Virus record (IMG/VR): IMGVR_UViG_3300036861_000141
Coordinates: 1-58,565 of that record
Reading direction: 5' to 3' (one strand)
DNA length: 58,565 nt
Source: a virus
Shown here one piece after another: positions 1,976 through 51,187 of this stretch. Every line of letters starts with the position of its first letter. Position 1 is the first letter of the stretch. Under the pieces are notes generated by a model, which saw only the letters and a program-made list of their open reading frames with translations, ran no database searches and was not told the DNA's origin. The position numbers and the translations under genes were made by a program.

Positions 1976-2869
1976 ATGGCGAGACCAGGGCTTACGAACC
2001 ACAGGAAGTTTCGCCGGCTTGCCAAACAACTCGGGTCAGCCGTCATCGCTCGCGGCGTCCTTGAGTTGATTTGGGAGTCCTGTTACGAGAGCGGCGATGA
2101 GTACGTTGGAACGGCTGAGGATATTGACCACTTAATCGGGTGGACTGGAGAGATGGGGATTGTAGCGGCGGCGCTGGTATCGGCTGGACAACCGGAAGGG
2201 CACGGCTTTCTTGAGCCGGTGTCGGCTGACGGGGCAGGCGGACCACTGCGCTACCGGGTACATGACCTGTGGCATCACGCGCCCGATTACGTGACCAAGC
2301 GGCGGAAGCGAGAGATGGAGCGACGGGAACGATCCGAACCTGTGTCCGCCGAACGGCGCCAAACGGCGCCGACTTCGGACAGCCAGGACGGAGATGTTCT
2401 CCCTCCCTCTCCCTCTCCCGCACCCTCACCCGCTCCCGCAGCGAAGAACGTTAGCGCCGAGCCGCCTCGCGGCACGACGCTGGCAGCCTCGGTTGTCCTC
2501 GAGTTTCCAACGGTGGGCAAGGGGTTAGGAACTTGGGCATTGACGGACGCACAGGTGGCGGACTGGCAGACGTGCTATCCGGGCATCAACGTGGAGTCCG
2601 AGTGTCGCAAGGCGCTGGCGTGGGTGCGGGCGAAGTTGGACCGACGCAAAACGGCTCGTGGCATGGCGGCGTTTCTCGTGGGTTGGCTGAATCGGAGCAA
2701 TGACCGGGGTGGACGAGCGCCAGCAGGCGCGGGCCACGCGGCACCGCAGCCAGAGCGAGACATTTGGACGTGTCGGCACATCGAGGAGTGTTCGCACCGG
2801 GCGATGTGTGAGCACAAGAACAACATGCCGCAGAAGTATCCGAAACGTGACGAGACGGAAGCCTCGTAA
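1976..2869 (+). CDS. Replisome organiser / phage replication protein (O-like)
   Basis: 297 residues. The N-terminal about 110 residues look like the winged-helix region of phage replication initiators and end in a very basic helix with KRRKREMERRER. A Pro/Ser-rich linker follows, with a CT-rich coding tract near 2400. The next segment, centred on residues 180-235, carries RKTARGMAAFLVGWLNR, a signature I recognise from C-terminal domains of phage replication proteins. The protein ends in a Cys/His cluster (CRHIEECSHRAMCEH) that may bind zinc. No DNA polymerase or replicative helicase is encoded, so it would recruit the host machinery. Confidence 0.7.
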   Translation: MARPGLTNHRKFRRLAKQLGSAVIARGVLELIWESCYESGDEYVGTAEDIDHLIGWTGEMGIVAAALVSAGQPEGHGFLEPVSADGAGGPLRYRVHDLWHHAPDYVTKRRKREMERRERSEPVSAERRQTAPTSDSQDGDVLPPSPSPAPSPAPAAKNVSAEPPRGTTLAASVVLEFPTVGKGLGTWALTDAQVADWQTCYPGINVESECRKALAWVRAKLDRRKTARGMAAFLVGWLNRSNDRGGRAPAGAGHAAPQPERDIWTCRHIEECSHRAMCEHKNNMPQKYPKRDETEAS

Positions 2870-2957
2870 GCGCGGCCACTATTCCCCGTGCAAGACGCAA
2901 GCGGACTGCTTAGGGAAGTTATTTGCTGATGCGAAGAAAGCGCGTGAAGCGAGCTAA
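2847..2957 (+). CDS. Possible small basic protein
   Basis: 36 residues from a GTG that overlaps the end of the preceding gene; very rich in Arg/Lys, with two cysteines (SPCKTQADC). It overlaps the next small gene by 29 bases. Short and without a good ribosome site, so it could be chance. Confidence 0.3.
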   Translation: MTRRKPRKRGHYSPCKTQADCLGKLFADAKKAREAS

Positions 2958-3081
2958 GCCGGAGTACTACGTGGAGCCGTTCAGCAGTTGCGGCTCATGC
3001 GTCTCTGGGTGGATTGAGACACCGAAAGGCGCCGGTACGGTGCTGGTGCCTCAAGGCGTGGCTGAACGACGGCAGGGGTGA
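2929..3081 (+). CDS. Small CxxC protein
   Basis: 50 residues from the ATG at 2929 to the TGA at 3079. Basic N-terminus (MRRKRVKRAK), then SSCGSCVSGW with a CxxC pair. GAAG-rich bases upstream could serve as a ribosome site. Unknown function; typical of the packed small genes of phage early regions. Confidence 0.5.
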   Translation: MRRKRVKRAKPEYYVEPFSSCGSCVSGWIETPKGAGTVLVPQGVAERRQG

Positions 3082-26273: not shown

Positions 26274-27405
26274 TCTTGAAGGCTTGGCCGATGTCGTGGT
26301 GCTGACGGTAAAAACCGCGATGGCACCAGTGCTCGAGCGGCTGGCGTTGGTTGAACAAGAGAACGCCAATCTCAAGGTGGCGATCGCTGGCTTCCATGAT
26401 GTGCGTGATCGGGTGGTGGCCGTTGAGACCAAGGCGGCGATGCCGATCTCCGTCACGGAAGTGCCACCTGTGGACCTCTCGCCACTCTTGGCGCGGCTGT
26501 CCGTGCTCGAGCAGGCACAAGCAGACACCAAGACGGCTTTAGGCATCGTGACGGAGTTACGGGATCGGGTGGTGGCGGTAGAGACCAAGGCGGCGATGCC
26601 GTTGCCTCTCGCTGTGGATCCGCCACCGCCCGCTGATTTGACGCCAGTGCTGGAGCGTATGGCGTCTGTTGAAGCGCACGTCTCTCGGCTAGGCACGGCG
26701 GAACAGATGCTGAGCGAGTTGCGGGATCGGGTCGTTGTGGTGGAGACAAAGAACGCGATGCCAGTCGCACCATCGGACACGCCGGAGCCGGTAGACCTTG
26801 CGCCAGTTTGGTCTGCTATTGAGGCGCAGAAAGAGTGCGTGACCGACCTCGGTGGTCGGCTGGCCACGGTCGAAACCAAGAACGCCCCGACAGGGATCAC
26901 ATCCTCAGAACTTGACCTGTCTATTCGTGAGCGGCTGGATCCGGTGCTCGCGTCCATCGCGGAAGCACGCGAACGCCTTGTAGCCGTCGAAACACGAGCG
27001 CCCACTCCTGGCCCTCCAGGCAAAGACGGAGAACGCGGCACTGATGGCAAGGACGGCACGCCTGGGCGCGATGGTGTGGACGGTCTCGGCTTCGATGACA
27101 TGGATGCCGAGTTTAATGAATCCCTGCGAATGCTGACGTTGAAGTTTCAACGTGGGCAACTGAAGAAGACCTTCCCAATCTTGCTGCCGTATCTGCAGTA
27201 CGAAGGCGTCTATATCGAGGGCAAGTCCTACGAGCGCGGTTCTGTCGTGACGTGGGCCGGTTCCACCTGGCACGCCAATGAGCAAACGACATTGAAACCA
27301 GGTGAAGGCTCAAAGGCCTGGACCCTGATCGTCAAGCGCGGTCGTGATGGCAAGGACGGTCGTGATGCAATGGATCCTATGCCTGTTGTGTCAGTGAAGC
27401 GATGA
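26263..27405 (+). CDS. Collagen-like, coiled-coil head fibre with chitin-binding-like end
   Basis: 380 residues from ATG 26263 (GGAGG site). Five repeats of the type RDRVVAVETKAAMP (near 49, 100, 154, 200 and 236) alternate with Pro-rich segments, giving a segmented coiled coil. Residues about 248-272 are collagen-like Gly-X-Y (PGPPGKDGERGTDGKDG and on). Then a globular part with YEGVYIEGKSYERGSVVTWAGSTW, the pattern of small carbohydrate-binding (CBM5/12-like) modules, and a second short GRDGKDGRD collagen end. It is probably a fibre on the capsid that binds surface sugars. Neighbouring sugar-transfer genes could modify it. Confidence 0.7.
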   Translation: MPRDLEGLADVVVLTVKTAMAPVLERLALVEQENANLKVAIAGFHDVRDRVVAVETKAAMPISVTEVPPVDLSPLLARLSVLEQAQADTKTALGIVTELRDRVVAVETKAAMPLPLAVDPPPPADLTPVLERMASVEAHVSRLGTAEQMLSELRDRVVVVETKNAMPVAPSDTPEPVDLAPVWSAIEAQKECVTDLGGRLATVETKNAPTGITSSELDLSIRERLDPVLASIAEARERLVAVETRAPTPGPPGKDGERGTDGKDGTPGRDGVDGLGFDDMDAEFNESLRMLTLKFQRGQLKKTFPILLPYLQYEGVYIEGKSYERGSVVTWAGSTWHANEQTTLKPGEGSKAWTLIVKRGRDGKDGRDAMDPMPVVSVKR

Positions 27406-28058
27406 GTATTGTCCTGACGACTGCAACGGCGGTGGTGCCTCGGCTGTGGCCGGGAGAAACAGTCTGCATTATTGGGGGCGGATCCAGTCTCACGGCGGCG
27501 GACTGTGCGTATGTGCGCGGCAAGGTGCGTGTCATTGCCATTAAAGAGGCGGCGGTCTGTAGCTTGCCGCACATTACACCGCCGGCGCCGTGGGCTGACG
27601 TCTTATTTGCGAGCGATGAAAAATGGTGGAAGTTTGAGCAGGGCGCACCAGGATTCACGCGCCTGAAATACGGCATTGAGAATGTTCCAGGTGTGCCGTT
27701 GCGCGAATGGCCTGGCGTGCAATACCTGAGAAACACCGGTGACGAGGGCTTAGAGCTCGATCCGTCAGGCCTCAAGACCGGATTTAACTCTGGAGCGCAA
27801 GCGATCAATCTGGTCGTGCATCTCGGCGCGGCCAAGATCGTTCTTCTTGGCTTCGATTGCTGGCGCGGTCCTTCAGGTCAACAGAACTGGTTCGGCCAGC
27901 ATCCAGCACACATCGATAGTCCGTATCCGATCTTTCTTCAAGGCTTCGCATCGATGGTGGAGCCGTTGAAAGCGGCCGGCGTAGAAGTGGTCAATGCCAG
28001 TAGATTCACTGTGCTGAATGCGTTTCCTCGCGTCCAACTTGAGGAGGCGTTGCCGTAA
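27402..28058 (+). CDS. DUF115-like sugar-related protein, second copy
   Basis: 218 residues, ATGA overlap with the fibre gene. VCIIGGGSSL at about 23-32 is the Rossmann start; KVRVIAIKEAAV, DVLFASDEKWW, GFNSGAQAINLVVHLGAAKIVLLGFDC follow. This is the short form of the same family as the gene at 12951. First gene of the sugar-transfer block between the fibre and connector genes. Confidence 0.65.
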   Translation: MSIVLTTATAVVPRLWPGETVCIIGGGSSLTAADCAYVRGKVRVIAIKEAAVCSLPHITPPAPWADVLFASDEKWWKFEQGAPGFTRLKYGIENVPGVPLREWPGVQYLRNTGDEGLELDPSGLKTGFNSGAQAINLVVHLGAAKIVLLGFDCWRGPSGQQNWFGQHPAHIDSPYPIFLQGFASMVEPLKAAGVEVVNASRFTVLNAFPRVQLEEALP

Positions 28059-28279
28059 TGGGTCGCGCCAGAATGCTCATCACGCCTGAACTGCTTCGCG
28101 AGTTGATTCCGCTGCCGATAAGCACGGACATCATTGGCAGCTTAGTAAACGCTGAATACGTCGATGTGGTCGTTGATGATCCGGCACTGCCAGAAACGTC
28201 TGGAGAAGAGTTGCCTATCGTTACTCCGACGTTCAGACGCAATGTGCCGGTGGAGTTCGTTGACTGGGGTGTCAAGTGA
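28058..28279 (+). CDS. Small unknown protein in sugar block
   Basis: 73 residues, TAATG overlap before and GTGA overlap after. Beta/helical mix with an acidic middle (VVVDDPALPETSGEEL). No recognised domain. Confidence 0.5.
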   Translation: MGRARMLITPELLRELIPLPISTDIIGSLVNAEYVDVVVDDPALPETSGEELPIVTPTFRRNVPVEFVDWGVK

Positions 28280-29043
28280 CGCCACCTGTTTCCTACTTCG
28301 TGCCGGACGAGTTCAGCTCGCCCAAATTAGCGTATGCCTTCGCGAAGGGTTGCGGCGGCACGATCACGGACGACCTTGAGTATCTGTATCCGGGGCCTGT
28401 CGCGATGTTTGGGTCACCTCCAGTGTGGCCTCTCCTTCGGAGAGCCAAGGCCGAACAAAGAGATTGGTTTTATATCGACCACGCCTATATGGGCCGGGGT
28501 CGGTTCTACCGGATCACTAAGAACGCGTACCAACATGACGGCACAGGCGTGGGTGAAGAGGCACGGTTTATTCGCGCCGCCGCTGGGCGCACTATCCAGC
28601 CCTGGAAGAAATCCGGCTCACACATTCTGATCTGCCCGCAGTCGGCCATCTATTTCAGCCTGCATGGAATCAATGCTGATGCGTGGCTGAGAGACGTGAT
28701 GGCGACGGTGCGAAAGTATACAGACCGCGAGATCAGGGTTCGGTATAAGGCCTCGCGGACGCCGATCGGGCCTGACCTTGAGGACGCGTGGGCGGTCGTG
28801 GTGTTCAGCAGTGCAGCGGCGCTGGACGGGCTAATCGCTGGTGTGCCGGTGTTTACGCTGGCGCCCTTCGCGGCGACGGTTCACATGGGTTTGTCGGACC
28901 TGTCTCGAATTGAAGCGCCCATTTATCCAGACGGGCGGGAGGAGTTTCTGTTCGCGCTCGCTTCCAACCAGTGGACCTTGCCGGAAATCATGCGCGGGTC
29001 GGCGTGGAGACACTTGCAGGAGAGCCATGTTCAAGCGGAGTAA
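28276..29043 (+). CDS. GT-B-like glycosyltransferase candidate
   Basis: 255 residues, GTG start. The C-terminal half has WAVVVFSSAAALDGLIAGVP then SDLSRIEAPIYPDGREEFLFALA, a Rossmann layout with a donor-binding loop as in GT-B enzymes. HILICPQSAIYF in the middle is the hinge strand. No clear catalytic residue; donor and acceptor unknown. Coupled to neighbouring transferase genes. Confidence 0.55.
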   Translation: MTPPVSYFVPDEFSSPKLAYAFAKGCGGTITDDLEYLYPGPVAMFGSPPVWPLLRRAKAEQRDWFYIDHAYMGRGRFYRITKNAYQHDGTGVGEEARFIRAAAGRTIQPWKKSGSHILICPQSAIYFSLHGINADAWLRDVMATVRKYTDREIRVRYKASRTPIGPDLEDAWAVVVFSSAAALDGLIAGVPVFTLAPFAATVHMGLSDLSRIEAPIYPDGREEFLFALASNQWTLPEIMRGSAWRHLQESHVQAE

Positions 29044-29791
29044 GGATGCCCACCGCGTCTTTATGGGCTTTGACGCTAATGAGATGACCTCGTGTCTCGT
29101 CGCTGAGTATTCGTTGTATCGGCACTCAAGTCCGTCAATGGTGGACGTCAAGCGCATCTCTCGGCTGACGCTGCTGAAGGACTACAACCGGCCGACGACG
29201 ATGCTGCCGAATGGGCAATTATTTGATGAGATCTCGGATGCGCCGATGAGCACGGCTCACGCTATCGCGAGGTTTCATGTGCCTCGCCTCTGTGAGTACT
29301 CAGGATGGGCGCTGTTCACTGATTCGGACGTGATCTTTAGAGAAGACATCGCCAACCTCTTTGCGTTGGCAGATCCGCAATACGCAGTGATGTGCGTGCA
29401 GCATCCGCCGTTACTTAAGCAGGGCAACAAGAAGGACGGGCATATCCAGCAGGCGTATCCGCGCAAGAACTGGTCAAGCGTGATGTTGTTTAACTGCGGC
29501 CATTCGTCGAATCAAGCCTTGACTCTGGACGTACTTAACGCTTGGCCAGGGCGCGATCTGCATGCGTTCAGGTGGCTACAGGATCACGAGATTGGTGCTC
29601 TGCCGGCGCGCTTTAACTGGCTTGTTGGAGTCTCAGCACCAGATCCCAATCCAGCTATTGCCCATTTCACTCTAGGCACGCCTGACGTCTCAGGACATGA
29701 GAACGACCCATTTGCGGCCGAGTGGTTCTCGTGCGCACGGGTGGCTGGCTTCCATGATCTCGCGGCGGCGTTTCACACGGAGATTGGGTGA
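29027..29791 (+). CDS. GT8-like (GT-A) glycosyltransferase
   Basis: 254 residues from ATG 29027 (AGGAGA site). YSGWALFTDSDVIFRED contains a DxD metal motif after a hydrophobic strand, and a later MLFNCGHSSNQAL and WLQDHEIGALPARFNWLVG match the late part of GT8-type fold A transferases. It uses a nucleotide sugar and metal in this family. Target inferred to be a virion protein or surface glycan. Confidence 0.65.
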   Translation: MFKRSKDAHRVFMGFDANEMTSCLVAEYSLYRHSSPSMVDVKRISRLTLLKDYNRPTTMLPNGQLFDEISDAPMSTAHAIARFHVPRLCEYSGWALFTDSDVIFREDIANLFALADPQYAVMCVQHPPLLKQGNKKDGHIQQAYPRKNWSSVMLFNCGHSSNQALTLDVLNAWPGRDLHAFRWLQDHEIGALPARFNWLVGVSAPDPNPAIAHFTLGTPDVSGHENDPFAAEWFSCARVAGFHDLAAAFHTEIG

Positions 29792-30085
29792 GTGGTTATC
29801 AACCTCCGTCGCTATCGCCGGAAGCGAGCAGACGCCACTGGCCGAGTGTGGTCTGTTGGCAGCTACCGACGAGACAGGGTTGGGGCGCGACGGTACCGCT
29901 GTTTTCTTAACGGTGTTGACGTGACCGATCACACGTTCTATGTGGATTCTCGACGCGGCGTCGTGCGGATGTTTAAGGTCAACGCAGAAGGCCACCATTA
30001 CGTTGATCCCAGAACCGACTATGAGGCTGCGTGGGAAGAACGTCGAGGCAAGGTCAAGTTGATTCGCAAACGTGAGGCGGCGTGA
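29792..30085 (+). CDS. Small basic protein in sugar block
   Basis: 97 residues from GTG 29792. CFLNGVDVTDHTFYVDSRRGVVRMFKV gives a beta-rich core with Arg/Lys-rich ends. GTGA overlap with the next transferase. Unknown. Confidence 0.5.
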   Translation: MVINLRRYRRKRADATGRVWSVGSYRRDRVGARRYRCFLNGVDVTDHTFYVDSRRGVVRMFKVNAEGHHYVDPRTDYEAAWEERRGKVKLIRKREAA

Positions 30086-30879
30086 TCGTGGGCTTTGGTG
30101 ATGAATTGGTAGCGGCTGGACAAGCACAAAGACTCTTTGAGGAGTTTGGCCAACGTGTGCTCATTCTCGACACGAATCATCGGCCGCGGTGGCATGCGAT
30201 ATGGGAAGGCAATCCGGTGATTGTCAATCCGATGGATCAGTTAGACGGCCAGGCCTATCAGCGGTTAGTGAGTGCGCCAAATGCACGGCCCTACATCGTG
30301 TATCCGTTTACGCAGGAGACAGGCTGGACGTTTAACAAAGCGTTCCACTGCAGAGACTACAAGGCGCGGCTGTATCTCACGGAAGAGGAATTGTCGAAGG
30401 GCCGCGAGGCACGCGAGCGATACGGACCGTACGTCCTGATCGAGCCGTTTACGAAGCACGAGAACTTCCGGTGGCCGATTGAGCGGTGGTCTACGCTGGT
30501 CAGCTCCTGTAAAGAGCTGACATTTGTGCAGCACACCCATCTGGAATCTGAGTTTGTCGATGGGGCGAGTTTGGAGTCAGCGACATTCCGTGAGGCCTGC
30601 GGACTCATCGCGAGTGCCAGTGCTTATGTGCGGTCAGAGAGCGGGCTGTGCCATGCCGCGGCGGCGATTGGAATCCCGCAAGTCACGTTGTTTGGCGGGT
30701 GCATGGACGCCGAGGTTATGGGCGGCTACGACAAGCAGATCTGCATCGTGGATGAGGATGCGCTGACGCCGTGTGGGCGCTGGCATCGGTGTGAACACTG
30801 CCTGAAGGCGATGGATCGGATCACTGTGAGCCAGGTGCGTGACGCGCTGTATCAGGCGCTGGGCGAGACGGTGCATTGA
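30082..30879 (+). CDS. GT9-like (heptosyltransferase-type) glycosyltransferase
   Basis: 265 residues, GTG start. YVLIEPFTKHENFRWPIERWSTLVSSC is the conserved first strand of the GT9 C-terminal domain, and SGLCHAAAAIGIPQVTLFGG its late donor-binding helix. A C-terminal CGRWHRCEHC gives an extra zinc-like pair. TGATG overlap with the connector gene, so transcription and translation are shared with the head genes. Confidence 0.7.
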   Translation: MIVGFGDELVAAGQAQRLFEEFGQRVLILDTNHRPRWHAIWEGNPVIVNPMDQLDGQAYQRLVSAPNARPYIVYPFTQETGWTFNKAFHCRDYKARLYLTEEELSKGREARERYGPYVLIEPFTKHENFRWPIERWSTLVSSCKELTFVQHTHLESEFVDGASLESATFREACGLIASASAYVRSESGLCHAAAAIGIPQVTLFGGCMDAEVMGGYDKQICIVDEDALTPCGRWHRCEHCLKAMDRITVSQVRDALYQALGETVH

Positions 30880-31394
30880 TGACGCTTATCAGCTTAGCCC
30901 AGGCGAAGCAGCACCTCAGAGTCACCTCCGACGATGAGAATGCGGACATCTGGAGCAAGGCCCAATTAGCCAGCGACATCATCGTGGCCTATCTCAAGGG
31001 GCGTCCAATTGCCGTCTCGACGCTGACGAATAGCGGAGGCCTGGCTACGGTGACTGCGGCCACGGTTCACGGCTTGACGACTGGTGACACGGTGTTCATC
31101 CGAGGGGCGGTGCAGCCGGAATACAACGGTGAAGTAGTGGTGACAGTGACGGGTACCAATACCTTCACGTATCCGATTGCTGGGACGCCTGTTACGGCCA
31201 CTGGCATCATGTGGATTCGAGCGGCAGCGACGTGGACCGAGACGACGGTGCCGTCCAATGTCAAAGCTGCGATTCTGGTTATGCTCACGCATTACTACGA
31301 GCACCGCGGCGATGACATGGATAAGTACGACGAGTCCGCGTGGCAGGCCGTTCGGAACCTGCTCGTTGGATTCAGGGATCCGGCGTTGGCGTGA
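30879..31394 (+). CDS. Head-tail connector, HK97 gp6-like, with inserted beta domain
   Basis: 171 residues. SLAQAKQHLRVTSDDENADIWSKAQLASDIIVAYLKG (about 4-40) and VPSNVKAAILVMLTHYYEHR (about 125-144) form the helical connector core. Between them, about residues 45-110, is an inserted beta domain with VTAATVHGLTTGDTVFIRGA and NTFTYPIAG. The normal core is about 100 residues, so the insert accounts for the extra length. It may be exposed on the neck. Confidence 0.75.
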   Translation: MTLISLAQAKQHLRVTSDDENADIWSKAQLASDIIVAYLKGRPIAVSTLTNSGGLATVTAATVHGLTTGDTVFIRGAVQPEYNGEVVVTVTGTNTFTYPIAGTPVTATGIMWIRAAATWTETTVPSNVKAAILVMLTHYYEHRGDDMDKYDESAWQAVRNLLVGFRDPALA

Positions 31395-31750
31395 TGGCAA
31401 CGCGAGGGCAGAAACGGCACCGGCTGACACTGGAGAATCCCGGCGCGAAGGTGCCGGATGGGGATGGGGGATTTACGCAGACGTGGGCAGCACTCTCACC
31501 GCCGATGGTCTATGCAGAGATTAAGCCAGCGACGGCGCGAGACCTCGAGCGGGTCGTGTCGAACGTCGTGCAGTCCACGGCGAGTCATATCGTGACGTGC
31601 GATTACCACAGTGGGATCACGTCCCAGACGCGGGTGAGTTGGACCGGGCCGAGAGATGGCCGGGCGCATGTGGGTGTGGTGACAGGCGTGCAAGATCCAG
31701 AGGAGCGCAACGTTGAATTAGTGCTGGCAGTGGAAGAGGTTGTTACATGA
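31394..31750 (+). CDS. Head-closure protein
   Basis: 118 residues, ATG overlapping the connector stop. HRLTLENPG, then YAEIKPATARDLERVVSNVVQSTASHIVTCDYHSGI and RVSWTGPRD are typical of the small head-closure/joining family (HK97/SPP1 gp16-type). Its last residues VLAVEEVVT are duplicated in altered form after the antisense HNH gene, evidence that the element supplied this terminus. Confidence 0.75.
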   Translation: MATRGQKRHRLTLENPGAKVPDGDGGFTQTWAALSPPMVYAEIKPATARDLERVVSNVVQSTASHIVTCDYHSGITSQTRVSWTGPRDGRAHVGVVTGVQDPEERNVELVLAVEEVVT

Positions 31751-31752
31751 AG

Positions 31753-32364
31753 TTAACCGACATGTTTCCAAATCTTTCCAGAGAGCACGTTGGCAACTGT
31801 CGTGCGGCTAACGTTGAAGTTGCGTCCGATCTTGGTCTTGGTGAGTCCGGCCATGGAAAGGGCGCGTATTTGCGTGACGTCGCGTTCACTGAGTTTGTGG
31901 TTGTGGTGCTCCACGCCTCTCTTAATGCTCTCCGGGTGCTTGTGTGTCCCGTGATTAGAGCCACGGATAGAGCGGCCTTTGTGAACCATGTCGCGGGAAT
32001 TGTCCGCATGGGTTCCGAGAAACAAATGATCAGGCCGAACACATCGGCGGTTGTCGCACTTGTGGGCGACTATCAACCCATCTGGGATTGGCCCGTATGT
32101 CAATTCATAGGCAATGCGATGAGCACCATGCGGTCGTCGCCCTATCGAGTACTGACCATACCCGTTGGAGAACGGACCAGCCGCCCATATCCAGCACGTA
32201 TCCGTTTGTCTGACTTTGCTCCAGAACCTATTTGGCGATTCGCTCCTGGCTTTGTTGTGGCATTTATGCGAGCAGTAGCGGCGCTTAGTGCCCTTGTTAG
32301 GTCGTATCTGTCCGCAATATGCACAAGTCCTGACAAGCGGTTTTATTGGCATAACTACGCACAT
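31753..32364 (-). mobile_element. Antisense HNH homing-type endonuclease inserted in the head module
   Basis: 203-residue gene on the opposite strand. It has two zinc pairs at the start (CAYCGQIRPN, YCSHKCHNKAR), an HNH core (YELTYGPIPDGLIVAHKCDNRRCVRPDHLFLG) and a C-terminal HTH (LTKTKIGRNFNVSRTTVANVL) that would bind the target. Its stop codon lies 3 bases beyond the stop of the head-closure gene, so the element is almost all coding. It breaks the otherwise overlapping series of connector genes. An internal ATG at 32352 is an alternative start. Confidence 0.85.
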
Positions 32365-32377
32365 TGTAGCACTACTG

Positions 32378-32406
32378 TGCTGGCTGTTGAGGATGTCGTC
32401 AGCTAA
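32378..32406 (+). pseudogene. Displaced original 3' end of the head-closure gene
   Basis: In frame these bases encode VLAVEDVVS and stop TAA, which overlaps the next ATG as TAATG, just as the neighbouring genes overlap. The active head-closure gene ends VLAVEEVVT at 31750. About 20 of 30 bases match, so the two ends are homologous but diverged. This is the residue of the gene end before the HNH element arrived. Confidence 0.8.
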
Positions 32407-32822
32407 TGGCTGGTGGCGTGCGCCTGGAGGGCATGGCTGAACTCATACGCGAGTTGACGAACGCGCCCAAAGACATTCGTGAGGGCGGGTTGGCCATCGT
32501 GCGTGAAGAAGTGGAAGGCGCAGCGGAGGAGATGAGGAATGCGTACCCGGGTGGCTTAAAGCGCACCGTCAAGGTGGACTTCCCGAGTAGCACGTTGCTT
32601 ATCGGCACTGTCAAGAACACGTCACCGCATAGCCATCTGTACGAGTTCGGCACGCAACAACGGCAGACGGCGAGTGGCGCGAGTCGCGGTGTCATGCACG
32701 GTCGGACTGGCGGCGGCGGAAGGCCAATCACCGTTCCGATAGCGAAACGACGGCGGCGACAGATGTTCGAGCGGCTGAAGCAGATGTTGAAGGACAAGGG
32801 CTTTGAGGTGACTGGTGGCTGA
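32406..32822 (+). CDS. Neck / tail-completion protein, HK97 gp10-like
   Basis: 138 residues. LEGMAELIRELTNAPKDI, AYPGGLKRTVKVDF and HSHLYEFGTQQRQTASG are the common features of gp10-like neck proteins, ending in a basic helix. Overlaps the next gene by 8 bases. Confidence 0.75.
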   Translation: MAGGVRLEGMAELIRELTNAPKDIREGGLAIVREEVEGAAEEMRNAYPGGLKRTVKVDFPSSTLLIGTVKNTSPHSHLYEFGTQQRQTASGASRGVMHGRTGGGGRPITVPIAKRRRRQMFERLKQMLKDKGFEVTGG

Positions 32823-50101: not shown

Positions 50102-51187
50102 CTAGCCTCGTTTTCGTTCCTGTTTTCTCACTTTTGCAGCTGTCCCACGTTTTGGCACCACAGGAAATCCCCCGAAGCGCCCTTCCAGCAACTGCCCGAG
50201 CTTCTGCATCCGCGAGTTCAGGACGGGTACATAGTGCCGGCGAGTCATCCGGGTATCGGAGTGTCCTGCTCCGGCGGCAATGTCCGCTAAATCAGCCCCT
50301 CGCTCGGCCGCTTCAATCCATGTTGAGTGTCGCGCGTTGTAGGGTCTGACACCTTCGGGCCAGCCACATCGTCTGATCGTCTTCGCAAACGCAGAGGTGC
50401 CATACTCGCCCCATGCATCAACCTCTGCAAAGAGCTTCCACGCAGCCAGCATGTCGTCATTGAGGTAGAGGCCCGGCGACCATCCGCCTTTGCCGTCTCG
50501 CACCAACCAGACACGGCGCTCAAGATCGACGTCGCCCTTTTTTGCTCGCATGATTTCTGACGGCCGGCGTCCAGTTGAGACGAGGACGCGGAACCGTGCG
50601 CGAGTCTTGGCGGTGAAGTGGCCTGTTTTCTCTCTCGCCTGCAACTCCTGATCGACCTTCAGGATCGTCTCGGCGTCGATGTGCTGGATCGGCGTCCTAG
50701 GCACGTGGAGCGGCGGCACATCGTCAACGGGCGTTGGTGCTCTCCTGCCGTCCAGCGTGTGGTACAGATGCCGGAGCGTTTCGCAGCGGTGGTTGATGGT
50801 GCGCGGAGCTGCCTTGGCCTGTTGCCATTTCACGCGAGCGGCGAGCACGTCCGTTCGGTTGATGCGGTGCCGCGGCACGTCGCCTAAGAGGGCATTCCAG
50901 TGCGCCAGGTGGGCTTTGCGATTGCGGCAGGAAACGAGCGTGGCAACGAGCTTTAGGTACTTCGGCGTGTCAGCCTTGAGCGTGCCGCGCTCAGCCTTTG
51001 GGGTTTCGGTTCTGCCTTGGCTTTCGAGTTGAGCGCGTTTCGTTAATAGCTCGTCTGGCGTGGAGTCCTTCGGCATCCGTGCGTAGTAGGCGGTACCGCC
51101 CACAACCACGCGGATTTCGTACGCACCGTCCTTGCCTTCACGATACACATTCTTGGTGAACCGAATCCGTTTGCCCTGACGTGGCAC
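50102..51187 (-). CDS. int: Tyrosine recombinase (integrase)
   Basis: 361 residues. The catalytic set: R208 in STGRRPSEI, K233 in DGKGG, R286 in YNARHS, H309 in AGHSDTRM, Y319 in RHYVP. In box II the usual first His is Tyr283 (YNAR instead of HxxR), a tolerated variant. N-terminal residues 1-60 are basic and may bind arm sites; about 70-150 is the core-binding domain. Integrates the phage into the host chromosome. Confidence 0.9.
   Translation of the reverse strand: MPRQGKRIRFTKNVYREGKDGAYEIRVVVGGTAYYARMPKDSTPDELLTKRAQLESQGRTETPKAERGTLKADTPKYLKLVATLVSCRNRKAHLAHWNALLGDVPRHRINRTDVLAARVKWQQAKAAPRTINHRCETLRHLYHTLDGRRAPTPVDDVPPLHVPRTPIQHIDAETILKVDQELQAREKTGHFTAKTRARFRVLVSTGRRPSEIMRAKKGDVDLERRVWLVRDGKGGWSPGLYLNDDMLAAWKLFAEVDAWGEYGTSAFAKTIRRCGWPEGVRPYNARHSTWIEAAERGADLADIAAGAGHSDTRMTRRHYVPVLNSRMQKLGQLLEGRFGGFPVVPKRGTAAKVRKQERKRG

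Follow-up and report, generated by a model that had tools for sequence, protein, structure and literature searches.

Gene content of the locus

The window, meaning the whole stretch of 58,565 nt analysed here, is a metagenome-derived record represented by a single assembly. It contains the genes of a temperate tailed phage (major head protein, portal, tape measure and integrase), and the phage's own integrase gene, at 50105-51187, lies outside the two head-closure gene ends described below. The genes for a head-tail adaptor, a head-closure protein and Neck1 are found in the order usual for a late operon, with an HNH gene inserted between the last two on the opposite strand (Table 1). Several ORFs upstream, at 27402-30879 from the portal region to the head-tail adaptor gene, have, by eye, the look of sugar-transfer or carbohydrate enzymes.

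Table 1. Features at and around the HNH gene in the window
Feature	Position	Strand	Basis
Head-tail adaptor gene, upstream neighbour	30876-31394	+	PF05135, phrog_40
Head-closure gene (Phage_HCP / Hc1), now apparently finishing in element-borne codons	31394-31750	+	PF05521 (E=6e-10); phrog_25
Putative replacement (carried) 3' end, VLAVEEVVT plus TGA	31721-31750	+	Third-position re-spelling; fall in GC3
Antisense HNH_3 homing-type endonuclease gene with C-terminal helix-turn-helix	31753-32364	-	PF13392 (E=1.6e-18); phrog_59 (E=1.7e-31)
Stop-free frame opposite the HNH gene, 219 codons	31747-32406	+	ATGA start, TAATG end
Putative stranded native 3' end, VLAVEDVVS plus TAA, with GAGG upstream of the Neck1 start	32377-32406	+	Position; TAATG; spelling as in empty-site relatives
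Neck1 / tail completion gene	32406-32822	+	phrog_5 (E=4e-13); downstream neighbour in the empty allele

The HNH gene is intact. Its product matches PF13392 above the cut-off and phrog_59, with matches to HTH_38 and HTH_7 that fall below the cut-off, and it is an HNH_3 enzyme of a tailed-phage late operon rather than a LAGLIDADG or GIY-YIG enzyme of a mitochondrion. As the earlier note on this DNA had stated, it is the only gene between the two ends, and neither an integrase nor the att repeats of a site-specific integrating element were found there. Its stop codon is separated from that of the head-closure gene by 2 nt. A sequence search of PDB with the HNH protein returned no match, and a promoter-like site for the gene (32390-32363, minus strand) scored near chance level. 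We infer that this is a free-standing homing-type endonuclease gene, which would be copied into an empty allele after cleaving it.

In L040, L092, L098, L099, L105 and L113, and also in L116, L145, L152, L153 and L154, the HNH gene meets the upstream operon gene tail to tail, and their stop codons share exactly 4 nt. This overlap, which is TTAG, CTAG or TTAA where read, is frequent among antisense HNH loci.

Two ends of the head-closure gene

The two head-closure ends reported earlier are both present in the window. The first is GTGCTGGCAGTGGAAGAGGTTGTTACATGA and the second, which overlaps the Neck1 start as TAATG, is GTGCTGGCTGTTGAGGATGTCGTCAGCTAA. The overlap was described correctly, though the second end begins at 32377 and not at 32378. 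The two 30 nt ends are 70 % identical, and their nine differences are distributed 0/2/7 over codon positions 1, 2 and 3. When every nine-residue peptide ahead of a stop in the six frames of the window (2446 in all) was ranked with a profile built solely from the ends of homologues, the second end ranked 2, behind the head-closure gene itself (scores for ranks 1, 2 and 3 of 19.7, 11.9 and 7.4). The first end completes the head-closure gene in frame and retains E115 and V117, the invariant residues of the family.

Relatives without the HNH gene

Viral homologues of the head-closure gene were found on 18 contigs. In L001-L003, L005, L006, L011, L017 and L018 there is one end, which directly overlaps the next gene as TAATG, and in L001-L003, L005, L006 and L011 this single end is of the VLACEEVVT type. 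L004, L007, L009 and L015 have a GTGA-type overlap instead. The HNH gene is an optional insert, as it is absent from the same site in L001-L006 and L011. In relatives, the gene immediately after the head-closure gene is 29-40 % identical to Neck1 of the window (BLAST; nine loci). Direct reading of the sequences revealed a GAGG-like sequence within the gene-end codons ahead of the Neck1 start in most relatives and in the second end of the window. The earlier note had predicted a direct TAATG overlap in homologues lacking the HNH gene and had named an HNH-less homologue with both ends as the finding that would count against it. Its own test was passed, because the HNH-less relatives have one end directly overlapping Neck1, and none of the relatives compared carries both.

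All close comparisons are based on metagenome contigs. In the head-closure gene, the nearest HNH-less relative of the window reaches 65 % protein identity. As no closer empty relative was found, the insertion point in the window could be narrowed only to a stretch of a few codons. The same element was not found in a second phage background, and scans of the genome collection with the head-closure gene found no prophage relative. Among phage isolates there was no DNA relative of the region and only weak head-closure homologues, and a degenerate pattern for VLAVEDVVS-TAATG had 0 matches in viral contigs.

The same event in other phages

The peptide content of the two flanks was compared at 63 + 80 HNH loci, a sample skewed towards relatives of two queries. 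A scan of 114 phage HNH loci identified two further replacement C-termini, in L040 and L145, each with a close empty-site relative. In a stop-anchored comparison of the flanks, scores of at least 32 were obtained at 3 of the 114 HNH loci, the window included, and at none of 299 control ORFs (maximum 28). In all three C-terminal cases the carried end abuts the nuclease stop.

L040 (2836-3794) contains another head-closure gene (phrog_25) and an antisense HNH gene in the same tail-to-tail layout as in the window, with the carried end ARIGARSYETVREVICREII and the native end ARVGARSYETVRECICREVV, each followed by a stop. The insert is absent from L167-L172, which are 85-89 % relatives of L040, and the insertion was mapped to one point within 2 nt. 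The DNA downstream of the insert is 94-96 % identical in L167-L170 and 70 % identical in L171. In L145, the interrupted gene is a MuF-like minor head gene (named by eye) and the empty relative is L177. In both L040 and L145, the end on the element's side has diverged and been re-spelled, and the native end still resembles the empty allele. With single-ended empty relatives and these two analogues of the same event, the sequence comparisons support the earlier reading, that an insertion occurred inside the gene and brought terminal codons along, as largely right.

Replacement N-termini are probably present in L147 (about 2069-3020) and L149 (about 2406-3012), where the layout is a mirror image: the old N-terminus is stranded before the nuclease gene, and the downstream gene has a new start and a re-spelled N-terminus. 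In L149 this is a DNA polymerase gene. These two cases are less certain, and a search for an empty relative of L149 found none.

A form with no remnant was seen in L113 and L154, in which HNH proteins that are 35 % identical are encoded at the same end of a tail gene that is 87 % identical. The DNA identity of the tail genes is mostly 0.87-1.0 and falls to 0.53-0.77 over roughly the final 200 nt near the nuclease gene, where the protein is conserved. L110 also belongs with L113 and L154: at the 3' end of this 831 aa tail gene the three have dissimilar HNH genes, and the last ~200 nt are spelled differently in each.

Among 12 annotated loci of phage isolates that contain related HNH genes, none showed end duplication. 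Several candidates were rejected or not counted. In L022 (1878-2460), a repeat of about 18 bp, TCGCCAGSGTTGGTTAACA, flanks the HNH gene and adjoins a tRNA-like sequence; it is intergenic and was rejected as a gene end. Flank matches in L094, L148 and L032 were rejected as compositional. A QALPAGGG/QSIPTGGA match in L113, 123 nt beyond the nuclease start, was left uncounted, as it is not clearly a native end.

Origin of the two ends

On the best reading of the sequences, the copy at 32377-32406 represents the native end, which has been stranded and continues to contain the Neck1 start region, and the copy at 31721-31750, with its re-spelled third positions, arrived with the element. The foreign tract in the window may begin some codons before 31721. 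The spellings GTCGTC and TAATGG are common to the native copy and the empty allele, and the carried copy differs. The third-position GC content in the window is 0.58-0.83 earlier in the head-closure gene, 0.33 in its last 36 nt and 0.67 in the native end. In L040 it is 0.83 in the gene body, 0.48 in the carried end and 0.90 in the native end, and in L145 it is 0.78 in both ends. Carried ends therefore tend to look foreign, although L145 shows no difference. The native end is nearer to the empty relatives than the carried end is, in L040 by identity (87-93 % against 57-62 % to the empty allele of L167-L171) and in the window by spelling only.

We propose, with a probability of about 0.82, that an antisense HNH gene has entered the 3' part of an essential gene as part of a mobile segment that carries a re-spelled end of the target gene directly behind the nuclease stop. 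The alignments show that the carried end now finishes the host gene, with the original end lying on the far side of the nuclease gene. The insertion brought re-spelled last codons, and the head-closure gene therefore still works. The native end is probably retained because it contains the start of the overlapping downstream gene together with its ribosome-binding region. Nuclease and end would move as one unit, along the lines of established homing biology (PMC2988022): the HNH enzyme would cut the uninterrupted 3' end of the head-closure gene in a co-infecting phage, and repair would copy the nuclease gene plus the carried end into the cut allele. Re-spelling would guard the element's own copy against self-cutting, and it would also remove a direct repeat that would permit loss of the element by recombination. 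The open complementary strand, considered below, would maintain translation of the operon across the insert.

The strongest alternative, though an unlikely one, is a one-off mosaic recombination in which the 3' part of a donor head-closure gene was gained together with the HNH gene downstream of it, the left junction coming from homologous exchange and the right one from an illegitimate join. The two ends would then be those of donor and recipient, with no standing habit of carrying ends. A single case would give the same layout, phage homing endonucleases are well known to co-convert flanks (PMC2988022), and the ATGA overlap of the carried end resembles the GTGA of relatives, so it could be the natural end of a donor. 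However, the pattern recurs at independent loci, with the carried end against the nuclease stop each time in the C-terminal cases; where different HNH genes occupy one site, the spelling of the adjoining end also differs from one to the next.

Duplication of the gene end as a target site at insertion, followed by neutral drift, would also place two copies of ~30 nt around the insert, and is very improbable. The differences between copies are mostly in third positions, in L040 (7/2/16 by codon position) as in the window, though the protein needs only one copy. In L040 the identities to the empty allele given above mean that the carried copy is no recent copy of the local end, and they refute duplication and drift for that locus. 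Equally improbable is a chimera of two strains made in metagenome assembly. Most of the loci are metagenome contigs, and only one L040 junction recurs in a second assembly (L166), but every native remnant is in the correct gene context, the joins lack shared sequence of k-mer length, and the pattern recurs across samples of different projects. Least probable of all is a group I intron or intein with VLAVEDVVS as the second exon: introns often encode HNH enzymes of this type, but no Rfam intron match was found in the region at E<=5, nor a catalytic RNA core, the upstream gene already has a complete homologous end and stop, and with the nuclease stop so close to the head-closure stop there is no room for a 5' intron part.

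The frame opposite the HNH gene

In the window, the codon-aligned frame opposite the HNH gene runs unbroken from the ATGA at the head-closure stop to the TAATG at Neck1, in frame with the native end; estimated from local codon use, the chance of this is 0.01-0.03. TTA, CTA and TCA codons in an HNH gene are stops in this complementary frame, and their depletion is confined to HNH genes flanked on both sides by genes of the opposite orientation. With the expectation taken from each gene's own third-base use, 55 were seen against 122.5 expected in antisense genes, and 294 against 328 in sense-oriented genes. The frame is fully open in 12 of 27 antisense HNH genes (2.8 expected) and in 4 of 59 sense-oriented genes (7.3 expected; permutation p about 1e-4). 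Gene orientation was assigned from ORFs and codon statistics, and family hits served as a check at some of the open loci. Three of the 27 antisense loci (L040, L145 and L147) were placed in the group by hand because the gene caller had missed or misread a neighbour. With automatic assignment, 10 of 24 antisense genes (2.3 expected) and 5 of 60 sense genes (7.4 expected) are open (p=1.5e-4). The signal persists when the four antisense loci with replaced ends are left out, when a GC-limited subset is used and when gaps are required to be tight, and the remaining two antisense frames have no comparable depletion of stop codons. The end of the frame overlaps the next start codon in the window, L113, L154 and L147, and in L145 there is one stop within it.

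The avoidance of stop codons in antisense HNH genes is statistical evidence for selection. One tentative explanation, to which we give slightly less than even odds, is that antisense HNH elements act as translational relays, in which the stop-free complementary strand would carry ribosomes from the upstream gene to the downstream start and so limit polarity in the late operon. The frame in the window, from ATGA to TAATG, may be such a relay.

Relationship to known systems

Prophages and satellites that integrate into the 3' ends of genes, such as e14 in icd, supply a re-spelled 3' end and strand the old one, and they use an integrase and att sites. The insert in the window differs in having no integrase and only an HNH gene.

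The mobile ORFs (mORFs) of fungal mitochondria, described for atp6, atp9, cox2 and nad3 of Glomus and atp6 of Allomyces, resemble the window in layout: an endonuclease gene has inserted towards the 3' end of an essential gene and carries a replacement C-terminus that has mainly synonymous changes, and the native C-terminus, which is similar to that of the uninterrupted relative, is stranded past the nuclease gene (PMC3630166). However, mORFs are mitochondrial and encode LAGLIDADG or GIY-YIG enzymes, and the nuclease is described as lying either downstream of the hybrid gene or in phase with it (PMC3630166). The phage cases involve antisense HNH genes, the native end keeps the start of the downstream gene, and there are probable N-terminal versions.

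The free-standing Seg and Mob endonucleases of T4 and its relatives are intergenic by description and are associated with co-conversion of flanks (PMC2988022). They share with the window an HNH or GIY-YIG gene without an intron, and they cut a neighbouring conserved gene, as is proposed for the window, but the text of the review includes no carried gene end, stranded native end or duplicated gene ends (PMC2988022). No phage report of carried gene ends was found in the open-access literature, which was the scope of the search. The carried-end trick appears to be known from fungal mitochondria and to be found here in several unrelated phages.

The arrangement indicates a way for a nuclease gene to target coding sequence of an essential phage gene, the most conserved kind of target, without killing its host phage, and it would account for the re-spelled gene ends found beside such nucleases. 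Gene ends that adjoin HNH genes may be foreign, and care is needed when they are used in phylogenies. The avoidance of antisense stop codons amounts to a testable claim about genes that run backward in tightly coupled operons.
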